Source: an uncultured Acidobacteriota bacterium (lineage in GTDB: Bacteria > Acidobacteriota > Blastocatellia > Pyrinomonadales > Pyrinomonadaceae). From it: a DNA stretch of 64,000 nt. Positions 51,120-58,401 of the stretch are shown piece by piece. Position numbers and translations under genes: made by a program. Position 1 is the stretch's first letter. Each line of letters begins with the position of its first letter. The stretch covers positions 1-64,000 of the forward strand of contig CADEGD010000001.1 of NCBI GenBank assembly GCA_902826795.1, given 5' to 3'. The notes under the pieces are model-generated. The model searched no databases and was not told the DNA's origin. It saw only the letters and a program-made list of their open reading frames with translations.

Positions 51120-52508
51120 CTATCCGAGAAGGTGATTTCTACCCGCTTCCAAAAGCTTATCGACCTCACCGTTCGTTTCGGCTTCGGCGTATATGCGGAC
51201 CATCGGTTCGGTTCCGCTGGGCCGCATTAGCATCCACGTGCCGTCTGTGAAGATGAACTTCACGCCGTCCAGTCGATTTATGTTGTCAATCTTTCGCCCG
51301 CCGATCTCGGTCGGCTCTTGTGCGAGCTTTTCTTTTAGCCTCGCCGCGACATCGTCGGTCAGTTTTACGCCGATGCGTTTCGATTCAAGCTTGCCGACGC
51401 GTTCGTAAAGGCTGGCGAGCTGTTCGCCGATCGACTTGCCGGTGACCGCTACCGATTCGGCCGCAAGCAGGCATGCGATCAACCCGTCCTTCTCGGGATA
51501 ATGATGGCGGATCGAAAGCCCGGCGGATTCTTCGCCGCCGAGAATGATCTCGTCCTTGATTATCAATTCGCCGATGAACTTGAATCCGACCGGCGTTTCG
51601 TGAAGCGGCAATCCGCGATCTTTCGCGACGCGGTCGATCAAGTTCGACGTTGCGACCGACCTTGCGAAGCCAAGCTTCCAGCCCCGCGTCTCCGCGAGAT
51701 AATCCGCAAGCAGCGCGACGAGTTTGTTCGGTTCGATGAACGTTCCGTCGCTGTCAATGATCCCAAATCTGTCTCCGTCACCGTCGGTCGCAAGGCCGAG
51801 CGTCAATCCTTGTGTCGTGACCGAATTTCGCAGCTCGTCGAGCTTGTCTTCACCGGGCTCCGGCGCCTTCCCGCCAAAGGTAACGTCTCGCCAATCGTGG
51901 ATCGTCTCGATCTCAAGCCCGTGATCGCGAAGGATCTTGTCGAGATATCCGCGGCCCGTGCCGTAGAGGCAATCGTAAGCGTATCGGCCCTTGGCCTTCG
52001 CGATCGTCTCGAAGTCGATCTTCGATTTCAGATCGCCGAGATAGGCTTCACGCGGATCGAATGCTTCAATGCTGCCGCCTTCTGCGTCGGCCGGTTCGTC
52101 GTTATTCTCGACTGCCGCTTCGATCAGCTTCGTAACGTCGGGCAGAGCCGGAGCTCCGTCGTGCGTCGAGAACTTGATGCCTTGATATTCGGGCGGATTG
52201 TGCGACGCGGTGAAGTTCAACGCTCCCGCCGCTTTCATGTTGCGGATAGCATGCGAGACGGTCGGCGTCGGAACGGGATGGTCGCAATGCAGCACACGGA
52301 AACCTTTTCGCTTCGCGATCTCTGCCGCCACCGCTCCGAACTTTTCGCCCATGAAGCGAGTGTCGTTACCGATGATCAGCGTATTGCCGAGTTCAGATTG
52401 AGTTTTCAAATATCCGCAAACCGCATTTGCGACCCGTTCGACGTTCGCGAACGTAAAATCTTCCGCGATGATCGCCCGCCACCCCGACGTTCCAAACTTG
52501 ATCTTCAT
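51120..52508 (-). CDS. Phosphoglucomutase/phosphomannomutase
   Basis: Alpha-D-phosphohexomutase of 462 residues that moves a phosphate between C1 and C6 of glucose or mannose. The phosphoserine loop is TASHNPPEYQGIKF (Ser103 or near), the metal loop is DGDGDRFGI, the sugar loop is GGEESAGL and the phosphate site is RPSGTEPMVRIYAEA. All four domains are complete. Sugar specificity cannot be read from these motifs. The start at 52508 precedes a long AT-rich gap. Confidence 0.92.
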   Translation of the reverse strand: MKIKFGTSGWRAIIAEDFTFANVERVANAVCGYLKTQSELGNTLIIGNDTRFMGEKFGAVAAEIAKRKGFRVLHCDHPVPTPTVSHAIRNMKAAGALNFTASHNPPEYQGIKFSTHDGAPALPDVTKLIEAAVENNDEPADAEGGSIEAFDPREAYLGDLKSKIDFETIAKAKGRYAYDCLYGTGRGYLDKILRDHGLEIETIHDWRDVTFGGKAPEPGEDKLDELRNSVTTQGLTLGLATDGDGDRFGIIDSDGTFIEPNKLVALLADYLAETRGWKLGFARSVATSNLIDRVAKDRGLPLHETPVGFKFIGELIIKDEIILGGEESAGLSIRHHYPEKDGLIACLLAAESVAVTGKSIGEQLASLYERVGKLESKRIGVKLTDDVAARLKEKLAQEPTEIGGRKIDNINRLDGVKFIFTDGTWMLMRPSGTEPMVRIYAEAETNGEVDKLLEAGRNHLLG

Positions 52509-53055
52509 TTACGCCTTGGACTTGAGTGAATGCTTACCCTAATACCTTGAGGTTGATCTACCGTATCACACCCGCTTATGTTTGTAAAGCGAAATGTAAG
52601 CTTTTAACTTGATATTTTGTAACAATTAAACGCTGTAGGTTAAATAGACGCGTGAAAGCACTGCTTAAAGCGATAAATCACAAAGTCACAGTAATACATT
52701 GATGGATACACTGATGGATGAATTTTTCGGGGACAGGCAGAGGTACGCAAGTTAAGCGCAGGCTTAATGTCCATGTATGTACAAAATGACACACCTCTTA
52801 GCCCATTGTTGACGGCTGTGTCATTCTGGCTCACCTGCTAAGTCGGGTATATTACATTCGAAAACGGGCTAAACCTCAGTGTTTTACTGCATTTGAAAGC
52901 GGCGAGGTAGCTCCGGTGCCGGGCATAGAAATTGCACTCAACAATGAGACCTAGACCGTTACCGGTCCGCGCGACTGCCTTCTTAACTACTAATTATACG
53001 GGCATCCGACGCTATTTAGCTGCAATCAGCTATTTGGAGAAGCTATTTATACGTT
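52509..53055 (+). other. 547-base non-coding leader upstream of the radical SAM gene
   Basis: No credible gene is visible. The DNA is more AT-rich than its neighbours. It contains an inverted repeat AATGACACA / TGTGTCATT (about 52787-52828) and a small hairpin AGCTGCAATCAGCT just before the start, with GGAG about 14 bases from the ATG. It must hold the promoters of two divergent genes and a long 5' untranslated region. The short minus-strand frame at 52640-52834 has no family and poor start context. Confidence 0.5.
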
Positions 53056-55095
53056 ATGACGAGACCAATCAAGCACTTTGAAAAAGGCCTTACATATGTA
53101 GCCAGCGGAGCGTTCAACGCCATCCGCTCGATTAACCAGTTTAAGCCGAACCCGAGCTTCATTCCGAAGTGGTCGGACAAGCCGATCCTCAAATCGTGGG
53201 AGAAGTCGAAGCCAACGCTCGGATTTCCGCGGCAGACGGATTCGCTTTGCCCGAACTGCGTGATCGAGGCTCGCGAGGCGATCATCAACGGTGATCGCGA
53301 TGTTTCCACGCTTATCAATGAGAAGGTCGGCGAGATCAAGGCACAGATCATCGAGCGTGACGGACAGGTTTGGATGATCAAGGATTGCCCGGAGCACGGC
53401 CACTTTGAAGACTTGATGGCGATGGACTCCGAGTTTCTGACGCACATCGAAGGACTCTTCCCCGGCCGCGACCAGCAGGCACACAACGACGAAAAGCTTC
53501 ACAACCACGGTTCGTCGACGATCAAGTACGGCCGCGGTGCGGTTCTTACTGTCGACCTTACGAACCGCTGCAACATGATGTGCGACCCGTGCTTCATGGA
53601 CGCGAACCAGGTCGGATTCGTCCACGAGCTTTCGATGGAAGACGTCAAAGAGATCCTCGACAACGCCATCTCGATCAAGCCGCGCCGACAGATGTCGGTT
53701 CAATACAGCGGCGGCGAACCTACATTGAGCCCTTACTTTCTTGATGCGGTCCGCTATGCGCGCAAGGTCGGGTACAACTCGGTGCAGGCGGCGACTAACG
53801 GTATCGAGTTTGCGAAGTCGAAAGAATTTTGTAAGGAAGCGGCAGAGGCCGGACTGCGATTCGTTTATCTGCAGTTCGACGGTATAGGCAACGACGCAAA
53901 CTCGCACCGCCAGATCGGTAACCTGTTTGATGTTAAGCTGCGTGCGATCAACAACCTGCACGAAGCCGGCGTAGATATCATTCTTGTCACGACGCTGGTT
54001 AACGGCATCAACAATGACCAGGTCGGTTCGATCATCCGCTTCGCTCTCGAGAATCCGAAAAAGATCTCGTTCATCGCTTTCCAGCCTGTGTCGTTCACGG
54101 GCCGCGACGAGCACATCACCGAGCAGCGTCGCCTGCAGCAGCGTTACACGCTTGCCCACCTCGCACACGATGTGAAGGGCCAAGTCGGCATCACTGAGCC
54201 GACGCGTGACTGGTTCCCGCTGTCGTTGATGGGAGCGTTCGCCGATTTTGCTGACGTGGTTCACGGTGCTGATGCGGATTGGGGACAGGTCAGCTGCGGC
54301 TGCCACCCGAACTGCGGCGTCGGTACGGCGGTGATGGTTAATAAAGAAACGAAAGAGATGGCTCCGGTTCCGCAGTTCCTGAATATTCAGGGCCTGGTTT
54401 CGGACATGCAGCACATCACGGACACCAACCGCGGTAAGTGGTTCTCGAACATCATGATGGGCCTCGCTCTCCTGAAGAACTATAACCCTTATGGTGCTCC
54501 GACCTCGTTGACGCTTGGCGGCATCCTGAAGAAGTTTGACAAGTCGTTCGGCCTGTCGGGCAAGGATTACGGAAAGGTCGGCGGCGACCGCACGGCCGAA
54601 GATATCGAGAAGCGTCGTCAAGACCCCTGGAACTTCCTCTTTATCGCGGGAATGTGGTTCCAGGATCTGTTTAATTACGACTTCCGCCGCACCGAGATGT
54701 GCATCATCCCGTACGGCACGCAGGAAGGCGAGATCTCGTTCTGTGCATACAACACCGGCATCGGCTGGCGCAATATCATCGAGCACATGCACCAGAACGC
54801 GACCGTCGCACAGTGGTATAAGGATCACGGCCGTCACGAAGTTTTCGCACGCGGCAAGCACGTTGAGCTTGGCGATCAGTCGCACAACCTCAACCTGAAT
54901 CAGGTCGACCTGACCCGTCCGAACAAGCCGGAGATGGAAGGTCCGAAGACGGCAGCCGAAGAAATGCAGATGATGCGCAAGCTCTACAACCAGATGGTTT
55001 TGGAGAAGAACCAGATCAAGGGCGAATCGCTCGTCCAGATCGGCGGCATCAAACGCGAGAAAAAGGCTGACAAGTCGATGGCAGTCGCTGAGTAG
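53056..55095 (+). CDS. Radical SAM protein of the tetraether-synthase (Tes/MJ0619) type
   Basis: Large radical SAM enzyme (679 residues). The 4Fe-4S motif CxxxCxxC is Cys172, Cys176, Cys179 (TNRCNMMCDPCFMDANQVG), and SAM-binding SGGEPT is at 218-223. Before it lies an N-terminal metal-binding region with SLCPNC (65-68) and DCPEHG (111-114). After it, CGCHPNCGVG (414-423) supplies further cluster ligands. This arrangement is that of archaeal MJ0619-like proteins, of which the Methanosarcina member joins lipid tails by C-C coupling (tetraether synthase), and of bacterial relatives linked to membrane-spanning lipids. The C-terminal 200 residues are an extra helical domain. The protein is well expressed by look of its codon use. 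It has its own terminator. Confidence 0.88.
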   Translation: MTRPIKHFEKGLTYVASGAFNAIRSINQFKPNPSFIPKWSDKPILKSWEKSKPTLGFPRQTDSLCPNCVIEAREAIINGDRDVSTLINEKVGEIKAQIIERDGQVWMIKDCPEHGHFEDLMAMDSEFLTHIEGLFPGRDQQAHNDEKLHNHGSSTIKYGRGAVLTVDLTNRCNMMCDPCFMDANQVGFVHELSMEDVKEILDNAISIKPRRQMSVQYSGGEPTLSPYFLDAVRYARKVGYNSVQAATNGIEFAKSKEFCKEAAEAGLRFVYLQFDGIGNDANSHRQIGNLFDVKLRAINNLHEAGVDIILVTTLVNGINNDQVGSIIRFALENPKKISFIAFQPVSFTGRDEHITEQRRLQQRYTLAHLAHDVKGQVGITEPTRDWFPLSLMGAFADFADVVHGADADWGQVSCGCHPNCGVGTAVMVNKETKEMAPVPQFLNIQGLVSDMQHITDTNRGKWFSNIMMGLALLKNYNPYGAPTSLTLGGILKKFDKSFGLSGKDYGKVGGDRTAEDIEKRRQDPWNFLFIAGMWFQDLFNYDFRRTEMCIIPYGTQEGEISFCAYNTGIGWRNIIEHMHQNATVAQWYKDHGRHEVFARGKHVELGDQSHNLNLNQVDLTRPNKPEMEGPKTAAEEMQMMRKLYNQMVLEKNQIKGESLVQIGGIKREKKADKSMAVAE

Positions 55096-55106
55096 TTAAC
55101 GGATCG

Positions 55107-55154
55107 CGGACATTCTTGTCCGCAACTCCGGACAATTGCGGACAAGAATGTCCG
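55107..55154. repeat. Perfect inverted repeat (GGACAAGAATGTCC family)
   Basis: CGGACATTCTTGTCCGCAA at 55107-55125 is exactly repeated in inverted form at 55136-55154, loop 10 bases. It lies 12 bases after the radical SAM stop and before the terminator, and is probably a dispersed palindrome. Confidence 0.75.
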
Positions 55155-57685: not shown

Positions 57686-57979
57686 ATGCGTATCATAAGC
57701 CGAAAGGCATTGCGGAACTATTGGGAAGAACATCCGAAGGCAGAAGAAGTTCTACAGGATTGGTATTCGAAGATTAAGAAATCGCAGGCGGGAAACTTTG
57801 CTCAATTGCGCGGAGCGTTCCCGAGCGCCGATCTAGTCGGTGACTGCATTGTTTTCAATGTAGGCGGTAACAACTACAGAGTTATCGTGCACCTCGACTT
57901 TAGCATCCAAACTGTTTGGATAAGATTTGTTTTGAGTCATTCGGACTACGACCGCGATAGGTGGAAGGCCGATTGTTGA
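57686..57979 (+). CDS. higB: HigB-type toxin
   Basis: mRNA-cutting toxin of 97 residues. The start MRIISRKALRNYWEEHPKAE is the known beginning of the HigB/PF09907 family and NNYRVIVHLDFSIQTVWIRFVLSHSDYDR the expected end, with conserved strand and His/Tyr residues. GGAG precedes the start. The antitoxin follows 17 bases later, giving the toxin-first order of HigBA. Confidence 0.92.
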   Translation: MRIISRKALRNYWEEHPKAEEVLQDWYSKIKKSQAGNFAQLRGAFPSADLVGDCIVFNVGGNNYRVIVHLDFSIQTVWIRFVLSHSDYDRDRWKADC

Positions 57980-57996
57980 AGTCGGTGAGGGTAAAG

Positions 57997-58401
57997 ATGG
58001 GTAAAAGATACAACCCAAATGCATATGCGGAGCTGCTCGTTGAATACTTGCCAGGCGTAATTCGCTCGGAGAAGGAAAACGACAAGGCCATCGAATTTGC
58101 CGGACGCCTAATGAGGAAGGGCGAGAAAGGACGTTCGCCTGAAGAAGGGCGGTTACTGGAATTGCTGATTACGCTGATCGAGGATTTTGAAGAGAAGGCG
58201 TATCCGATCGGCCCGTCGGATCCAGCGGTTGCCTTGCGCGAACTGATGCGGGAACACGGGCTGAAACAAACCGATATGGTCGGGATCTTCGGCTCGCAAG
58301 GAACCGTCTCCCAAGTCCTCAATGGCAAACGCGACATCAGCAAGTCACAGGCAAAGAAACTCTCCGCCCGATTTCATCTGCCAGTCGACATCTTTATCTA
58401 A
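57997..58401 (+). CDS. higA: HigA-type antitoxin
   Basis: Antitoxin of 134 residues. The N-terminal half (YNPNAYAELLVEYLPGVIRS, LLELLITLIEDFEEKAYPIG) is the family toxin-binding region; the C-terminal half is an XRE helix-turn-helix with VALRELMREHGLKQTDMVGI and TVSQVLNGKRDIS. GAGG precedes the ATG at 57997; an in-frame GTG at 57961 would overlap higB. Self-regulation of the pair is expected. Confidence 0.92.
   Translation: MGKRYNPNAYAELLVEYLPGVIRSEKENDKAIEFAGRLMRKGEKGRSPEEGRLLELLITLIEDFEEKAYPIGPSDPAVALRELMREHGLKQTDMVGIFGSQGTVSQVLNGKRDISKSQAKKLSARFHLPVDIFI

Follow-up and report, generated by a model that had tools for sequence, protein, structure and literature searches.

The gene at 53056-55095 on the forward strand of the window (the whole stretch of DNA analysed, 64,000 nucleotides) probably encodes a membrane-spanning-lipid synthase, which by analogy with the archaeal enzyme Tes (GDGT-MAS) would join iso-C15 acyl tails at their ends to form iso-diabolic acid. 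The protein belongs to an acidobacterial long form of the Tes-related radical SAM family, termed here the B form. A wider reading, given an even chance of being correct, treats the B form as a phylum-wide, hitherto undivided subfamily of tail-coupling enzymes that dispensed with the N-terminal Fe4S4 cluster. In this reading it would act in aerobic Acidobacteria, account for iso-diabolic acid throughout subdivisions 1, 3, 4, and 6, and be controlled by sigma-54 in the host's family. Homology, a fold match, the conservation and loss of ligands, the distribution and a promoter element form the basis of both readings, and from these we infer the substrate, the product, each chemical step and the membrane attachment.

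No organisms are better known for making iso-diabolic acid and branched tetraethers than the Acidobacteria. Fossils of these lipids in soils and lakes record past temperature and pH, and the acidobacterial coupling enzyme is not known to have been identified by experiment. The B form offers a single-copy candidate that is near-universal, has lost one cluster, has kept its catalytic site intact and stops at a clear phyletic border, and it could serve as a marker of producers in metagenomes. If the reading is true, the archaeal coupling chemistry can work minus one iron-sulfur cluster.

The general idea of an acidobacterial Tes-type lipid synthase was already published in 2022. Zeng et al. reported 456 bacterial Tes homologues, Acidobacteria included, with Koribacter and Solibacter homologues at 40-42% identity to archaeal Tes and an Edaphobacter aggregans homologue at 32% identity, and proposed the acidobacterial homologues as makers of membrane-spanning lipids (PMC8941075), while Halamka et al. 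put Tes homologues forward for the branched tetraethers of Solibacter (PMC10087280). The Koribacter and Solibacter homologues are probably the A form described below, and the Edaphobacter aggregans homologue is probably a B form. The published accounts do not, as far as is known, separate A and B forms or describe the loss of the cluster, the border across the phylum, the paralogue or the promoter, and these points are new here.

Gene and protein features

The ORF listing showed a real ORF of 679 amino acids from ATG to stop, and a comparison of starts showed that its ATG matches that of most relatives. Assignment of this CDS to the Tes/GDGT-MAS-related radical SAM family came from Pfam, NCBIfam, phmmer, fold and tree. 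Pfam matched two domains, Radical_SAM at E 7.5e-20 and the MJ0619-group zinc ribbon Zn_ribbon_HMPTM at E 9.6e-15; these E-values, together with Cys and His residues conserved across about 100 relatives, place the motifs far above chance. A preliminary description of the locus had recorded an N-terminal CPxC/CPEHG metal region, a CxxxCxxC radical SAM site at residues 172-179 and a second Cys-rich site at residues 414-423, and all three are present. The metal region consists of CPNC (residues 65-68) and CPEHG (residues 111-115), which form a rubredoxin-like site of C65, C68, C111, and H114 (53248-53397, Pfam and alignment) corresponding to C9, C12, C33, and H36 of MJ0619 in the ligand numbering of PMC9433317. 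Its loop is X42 in the B-form protein vs X20 in MJ0619, about 22 residues more. The radical SAM motif C172-x3-C176-x2-C179 lies at 53569-53592 (Pfam and alignment) and the second Cys-rich site, CGCHPNCGVG, at 54295-54324 (alignment).

The protein carries an N-terminal extension of 55 residues without counterpart in MJ0619. It includes a predicted amphipathic helix (codons 4-27, 53065-53136; AlphaFold2 helix 4-27, hydrophobic moment about 0.5), which may be a membrane-surface anchor. At the other end the Tes match stops at about residue 594, and by the AlphaFold2 model and fold comparison the C-terminal extension comprises codons 595-679 (54838-55092). The extra C-terminal domain, put at about 200 residues in the preliminary description, thus shrinks to about 85, of which the last 27 have a pLDDT below 50 and are predicted to be disordered.

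Family membership, fold and phylogeny

The best NCBIfam model for the 679-residue protein was Tes (NF045702; 324.4 bits, E 1.1e-96, residues 60-580), with a score that does not reach the curated cut-off of 450 bits; the protein should therefore not be named an orthologous Tes. The second-best model was TrsS (NF045646), at 211 bits vs a cut-off of 490, which was not reached either. In phmmer, the top PDB sequence match was 7tol, GDGT-MAS from Methanocaldococcus jannaschii (E 6e-63, residues 93-567). An AlphaFold2 model built from 50 relatives had a mean pLDDT of 74 and a pTM of 0.81. The comparison with Tes structures proposed earlier gave 7tom (MJ0619) as the best match of this model, with a Foldseek E of 1.7e-23 and a VIA Z of 23.7 (rmsd 3.7, 431 residues), while the next entry, MoaA, had a Z of 14.9. 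Confidence was low near the clusters (residues 140-171 and 548-570), and so the model is read for fold and not for ligand geometry.

A careful tree was generated from 38 proteins, rooted on TrsS-like proteins, with archaeal Tes as one sequence. MJ0619 stood as sister to a clade uniting the bacterial A, B, and C forms (100/100). Inside this clade the B form was nested beside the C form (100/100), and its stem measured 1.5 changes per site; this long stem and the single archaeal sequence call for caution on the placement. The B form stood in the clade headed by MJ0619 and apart from TrsS (100/98 and 100/100), and a larger quick tree gave the same grouping. Placement in some other radical SAM clade, which had been named as the result that would speak against kinship with Tes, was not found, the protein lying inside the Tes-like clade and apart from TrsS and MoaA. 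Its nested position in the TrsS-rooted tree suggests that the B form is, most simply, a bacterial Tes homologue minus one cluster. The kinship with MJ0619/Tes claimed at the outset is thus supported, as that of a distant relative, by the sequence, the predicted fold, the catalytic-site residues and the phylogeny.

A search of viral contigs with an A-form protein found no relative, and a search of plasmids found only TrsS-like and other distant relatives, which served as outgroup. TrsS-like genes of one acidobacterial family (f29; genomes G156, G140, G187, G075, and G194) contain a single in-frame TGA, as selenoproteins would have.

Metal ligands and active-site residues

Ligands were compared in an alignment of 101 B-type proteins (92 from the main clade, 4 from other classes and 5 paralogues) with MJ0619 residues 1-490, which were rebuilt from the printed alignment and in which every ligand position named in PMC9433317 fell in place. 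The rubredoxin-like residues C65, C68, C111, and H114 were 99-100% conserved where the region is present, and C172, C176, and C179 were found in all 101 proteins. The equivalents of the SAM-loop residues Gln268, Ser271, and Arg275 were kept.

In the C-terminal part, C420, C549, C563, and M533 were invariant. C420 aligns with C338 of MJ0619, and the B-type proteins have two further invariant Cys residues, C414 and C416. C420, C549, and C563 are the putative ligands of the C-terminal Fe4S4 cluster, with the binding Cys residues of MJ0619 themselves read from invariance. Codons 533-563 (54652-54744; alignment and PMC9433317) also hold the two residues that mark the active site: M533, equivalent to Met439, the labile ligand of MJ0619 in PMC9433317, and Y553, equivalent to Tyr459, which in MJ0619 lies next to the end of the substrate, both present in 101 of 101 B-type proteins. 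Met439 and Tyr459 are reported to be completely conserved among 1000 archaeal homologues (PMC9433317). TrsS-like proteins with letters at these sites had Q or M at the first and F or V at the second.

The N-terminal Fe4S4 cluster, bound in MJ0619 by C73, C77, C80, and a His, gave the opposite result. In the aligned region (codons 143-161, 53482-53538), C73, C77, and C80 of MJ0619 are replaced by a gap, H151, and S154 in all 101 B-type proteins, so that its ligands are lost, and a conserved H149/H151 motif occupies the position; the loss in every protein makes the B form a divergent subfamily and not an orthologous Tes. The three-part layout of the MJ0619/Tes group described for this protein therefore holds for its motifs but not as an identical layout, and of the extra-cluster ligands looked for in the alignment those of the C-terminal cluster are kept and those of the N-terminal cluster are absent. 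The B form is accordingly predicted to hold two Fe4S4 clusters and one mononuclear iron, compared with three clusters in MJ0619. The N-terminal Fe4S4 Cys residues were kept in every A-form and C-form acidobacterial row of the alignment. The C-form homologues (L109-L113; families f7 and f50) keep the N-terminal cluster yet already have the C414 equivalent; the C form is likely a transition state between the A and B forms.

Comparison with related enzymes

The B form shares with Tes/GDGT-MAS (MJ0619, 7tol/7tom, NF045702) the fold, the rubredoxin-like site, the radical SAM cluster, and the C-terminal Fe4S4 ligands with Met439, Tyr459 and the SAM-loop Gln, Ser, and Arg. It differs in having only about 31% identity and 324 bits against the 450-bit cut-off, in the loss of the N-terminal Fe4S4 ligands, in a replaced Arg210, in a CxC added before the C338 equivalent, and in its N- and C-terminal extensions. 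The host of the B form is also a bacterium, with iso-branched acyl tails in its lipids.

The A-form Tes homologues of Acidobacteria score above the NF045702 cut-off and form a common clade with the B form (100/100). They keep all four metal sites, have about 540 residues and occur sporadically, whereas the B form has about 680 residues and is near-universal in some classes. The host's own genome lacks the A form, as do most genomes with a B form, among them well assembled ones from the iso-diabolic acid classes. In two genomes of one genus (L119 and L120; G107:C21 and G065:C24) an A form and a B form lie a few kb apart, a hint that the two act in one pathway there.

The experimentally identified bacterial membrane-spanning lipid synthase is Mss (PMC11868695), whose models are reported to have the catalytic architecture of Tes (PMC13274423). 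Mss of Thermotogota and Bacillota, compared here by description, has in common with the B form a proposed reaction on fatty acyl tails. Thermotoga maritima, a producer of diabolic acid lipids, had no match to the Tes model at E 1e-30, and Mss thus appears to be farther from Tes than the B form is.

Within the host's own genome, the 53056-55095 protein and a paralogue, B', were the only Tes relatives; the next matches were a MoaA-like protein and another short radical SAM protein. The paralogue (contig C2, 18590-20389; 8501-10450 of locus L118, minus strand) has 55% identity to the 53056-55095 protein. Its ligand set is the same as that of the B form, but it belongs to a separate clade which is found in genomes of the host's family (f1) and is missing from some genomes of the same genus. 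Genes near the paralogue are presumably acyl-CoA-ligase-like, inositol-phosphate-synthase-like and glucose-6-phosphate-isomerase-like.

Distribution and iso-diabolic acid

A match was found in about half of the 396 genomes of the phylum sample. The B form was present in 53 of 54 Blastocatellia (the host's class), in 194 of 200 Terriglobia (the class of G033) and in one genome fitting Luteitalea (probably subdivision 6). It was found in none of the 61 genomes of the class taken as Holophagae, four of which have shorter partial matches of TrsS-like extent. B-type proteins were the only full-length Tes relatives in the host's own genome and in many others.

A survey of 46 strains from seven subdivisions showed iso-diabolic acid in subdivisions 1, 3, 4, and 6 (PMC13274423). 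In Pyrinomonas, type genus of what is likely the host family, ether and membrane-spanning forms, including iso-diabolic acid, make up >40% of the lipids (PMC4644332), and Chloracidobacterium also contains iso-diabolic acid (PMC12816986). Two species of the Holophagae class have iso-C15:0 among their main fatty acids (PMC8841776), so the building block occurs there without the B gene. The occurrence of the B form agrees at class level with published iso-diabolic acid, with subdivisions 10 and 23 not separated, and the class that reportedly has no such lipids is the one without the gene. Because the match depends on a handful of deep losses or gains and the lipid data come from different strains, it is a class-level correlation.

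Proposed mechanism and alternative functions

MJ0619 uses two SAM-derived radicals, holds a substrate radical on a sulfur of its C-terminal cluster and then carries out an sp3-sp3 coupling (PMC9433317). For each bond it yields two 5'-deoxyadenosine, and a sulfur adduct appears when SAM is limiting. By analogy, the radical SAM cluster of the B form (C172/C176/C179) would cleave SAM, and the 5'-deoxyadenosyl radical would abstract hydrogen at the terminal methyl group of an iso-branched acyl tail in a phospholipid. A sulfur of the C-terminal Fe4S4 cluster (C420/C549/C563, with the labile M533) would hold the carbon radical until a second SAM had activated another tail, whereupon a bond would form between the two sp3 carbons. 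The product from two iso-C15:0 tails would be iso-diabolic acid (13,16-dimethyl octacosanedioic acid), with electrons perhaps passing via the rubredoxin-like iron; the archaeal N-terminal Fe4S4 cluster, missing in the B form, would apparently be dispensable. The iso end of 13-methyltetradecanoate and phytanyl have an identical terminus (Zeng et al., PMC8941075), and bacterial phosphatidic acid is bound by MJ0619 (PMC9433317). The step from homology to an iso-C15 substrate is nevertheless one that we infer by analogy, and the score under the Tes cut-off together with the loss of one Fe4S4 cluster means that the chemistry or the substrate may have moved.

Such a shift is the substance of the chief alternative, in which the B form acts on membrane-spanning or iso-branched lipids through another C-C or C-H change (C5/C6 methylation, ring formation or cross-linking) and Mss or the A form makes the iso-diabolic acid. 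The lost N-terminal cluster and the stem of 1.5 changes per site could signal an altered reaction, Mss reportedly occurs in 11 of 97 acidobacterial MAGs from the Black Sea (PMC11868695), and some Acidobacteria possess an A form scoring above the Tes cut-off. This alternative is nonetheless unlikely: the A form is absent from the host's own genome and most B-form genomes, the B form retains the coupling enzyme's C-terminal cluster and active-site residues, and the near-universal B gene contrasts with methylated or cyclised products, which are limited to some strains. Published accounts, moreover, describe Gms as a SPASM protein separate from Tes, and GrsA as most likely without an auxiliary cluster.

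A role outside lipids, as a TrsS-like or other radical SAM enzyme, is much less probable still. TrsS was the second-best NCBIfam model and has the rubredoxin-like motif in common with the B form, but 211 bits lies far from the cut-off of 490, TrsS-like proteins do not keep M439 and Y459, and the tree separates them from the B form with full support. The TrsS system adjoins methyltransferase and thiol-redox genes, while no methyltransferase, redoxin or CcdA was seen beside the B gene. Hardly any weight falls on a 7,8-dihydropterin methyltransferase, as MJ0619 was formerly annotated; the Pfam name HMPTM stems from this annotation. The Zn_ribbon_HMPTM match speaks for it, but the old function of MJ0619 was not reproduced and lipid coupling was assigned instead on structural and biochemical grounds (PMC9433317); with this reassignment, the candidate was rejected. 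Coupling of acyl tails stays the preferred reading of the B form.

Promoter and gene neighbourhood

A phosphoglucomutase/phosphomannomutase-type gene (51120-52508, minus strand) is transcribed divergently from the B gene and is a conserved neighbour only in close relatives. The 547 bases at 52509-53055, taken at first for a leader, are the gap between these divergent genes (ORF map), and an Rfam search of them found no family. Upstream regions were not conserved save for a GGCAC-N5-TTGC element, which fits the sigma-54 (-24/-12) promoter pattern. In the window it reads GGGCATAGAAATTGC (52921-52935, forward strand), about 120 bases 5' of the start codon at 53056, and its position points to a leader some 110 nt long. 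The element is conserved upstream of Pyrinomonadaceae-type orthologues, preceding nearly all those of close relatives (L004-L039), and was not found before most other-class homologues or before paralogue B'. In a shuffle test with single-base shuffles, the p-values were rough, and the strength of the element lies in its recurrence. The host's own genome has a sigma-54 gene, and from the recurrent element the B gene appears to be transcribed from a sigma-54 promoter in the host's family.

No conserved lipid gene was found beside the B gene among the neighbourhoods of its relatives. In Pyrinomonadaceae-type genomes the neighbours are FtsB/DivIC and phosphomannomutase, with no conservation beyond close relatives, so that genome context gives no functional clue; in other genomes the neighbours are what we take to be SurE/Pcm-type genes. 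The ether-lipid proteins Ger/PlsA are expected to carry a DUF2229 domain. A search for this domain was positive in T. maritima and found none in the host's own genome, which leaves either another ether pathway or products that are esters.

Two further features were seen downstream. An inverted repeat around CGGACATTCTTGTCCG at 55106-55152, directly 3' of the stop codon, is either terminator-like or a dispersed repeat. At 57686-58401 on the forward strand, a gene for a HigB-type toxin (Pfam E 5e-26) is followed by an HTH antitoxin gene, and together these form a toxin-antitoxin pair.
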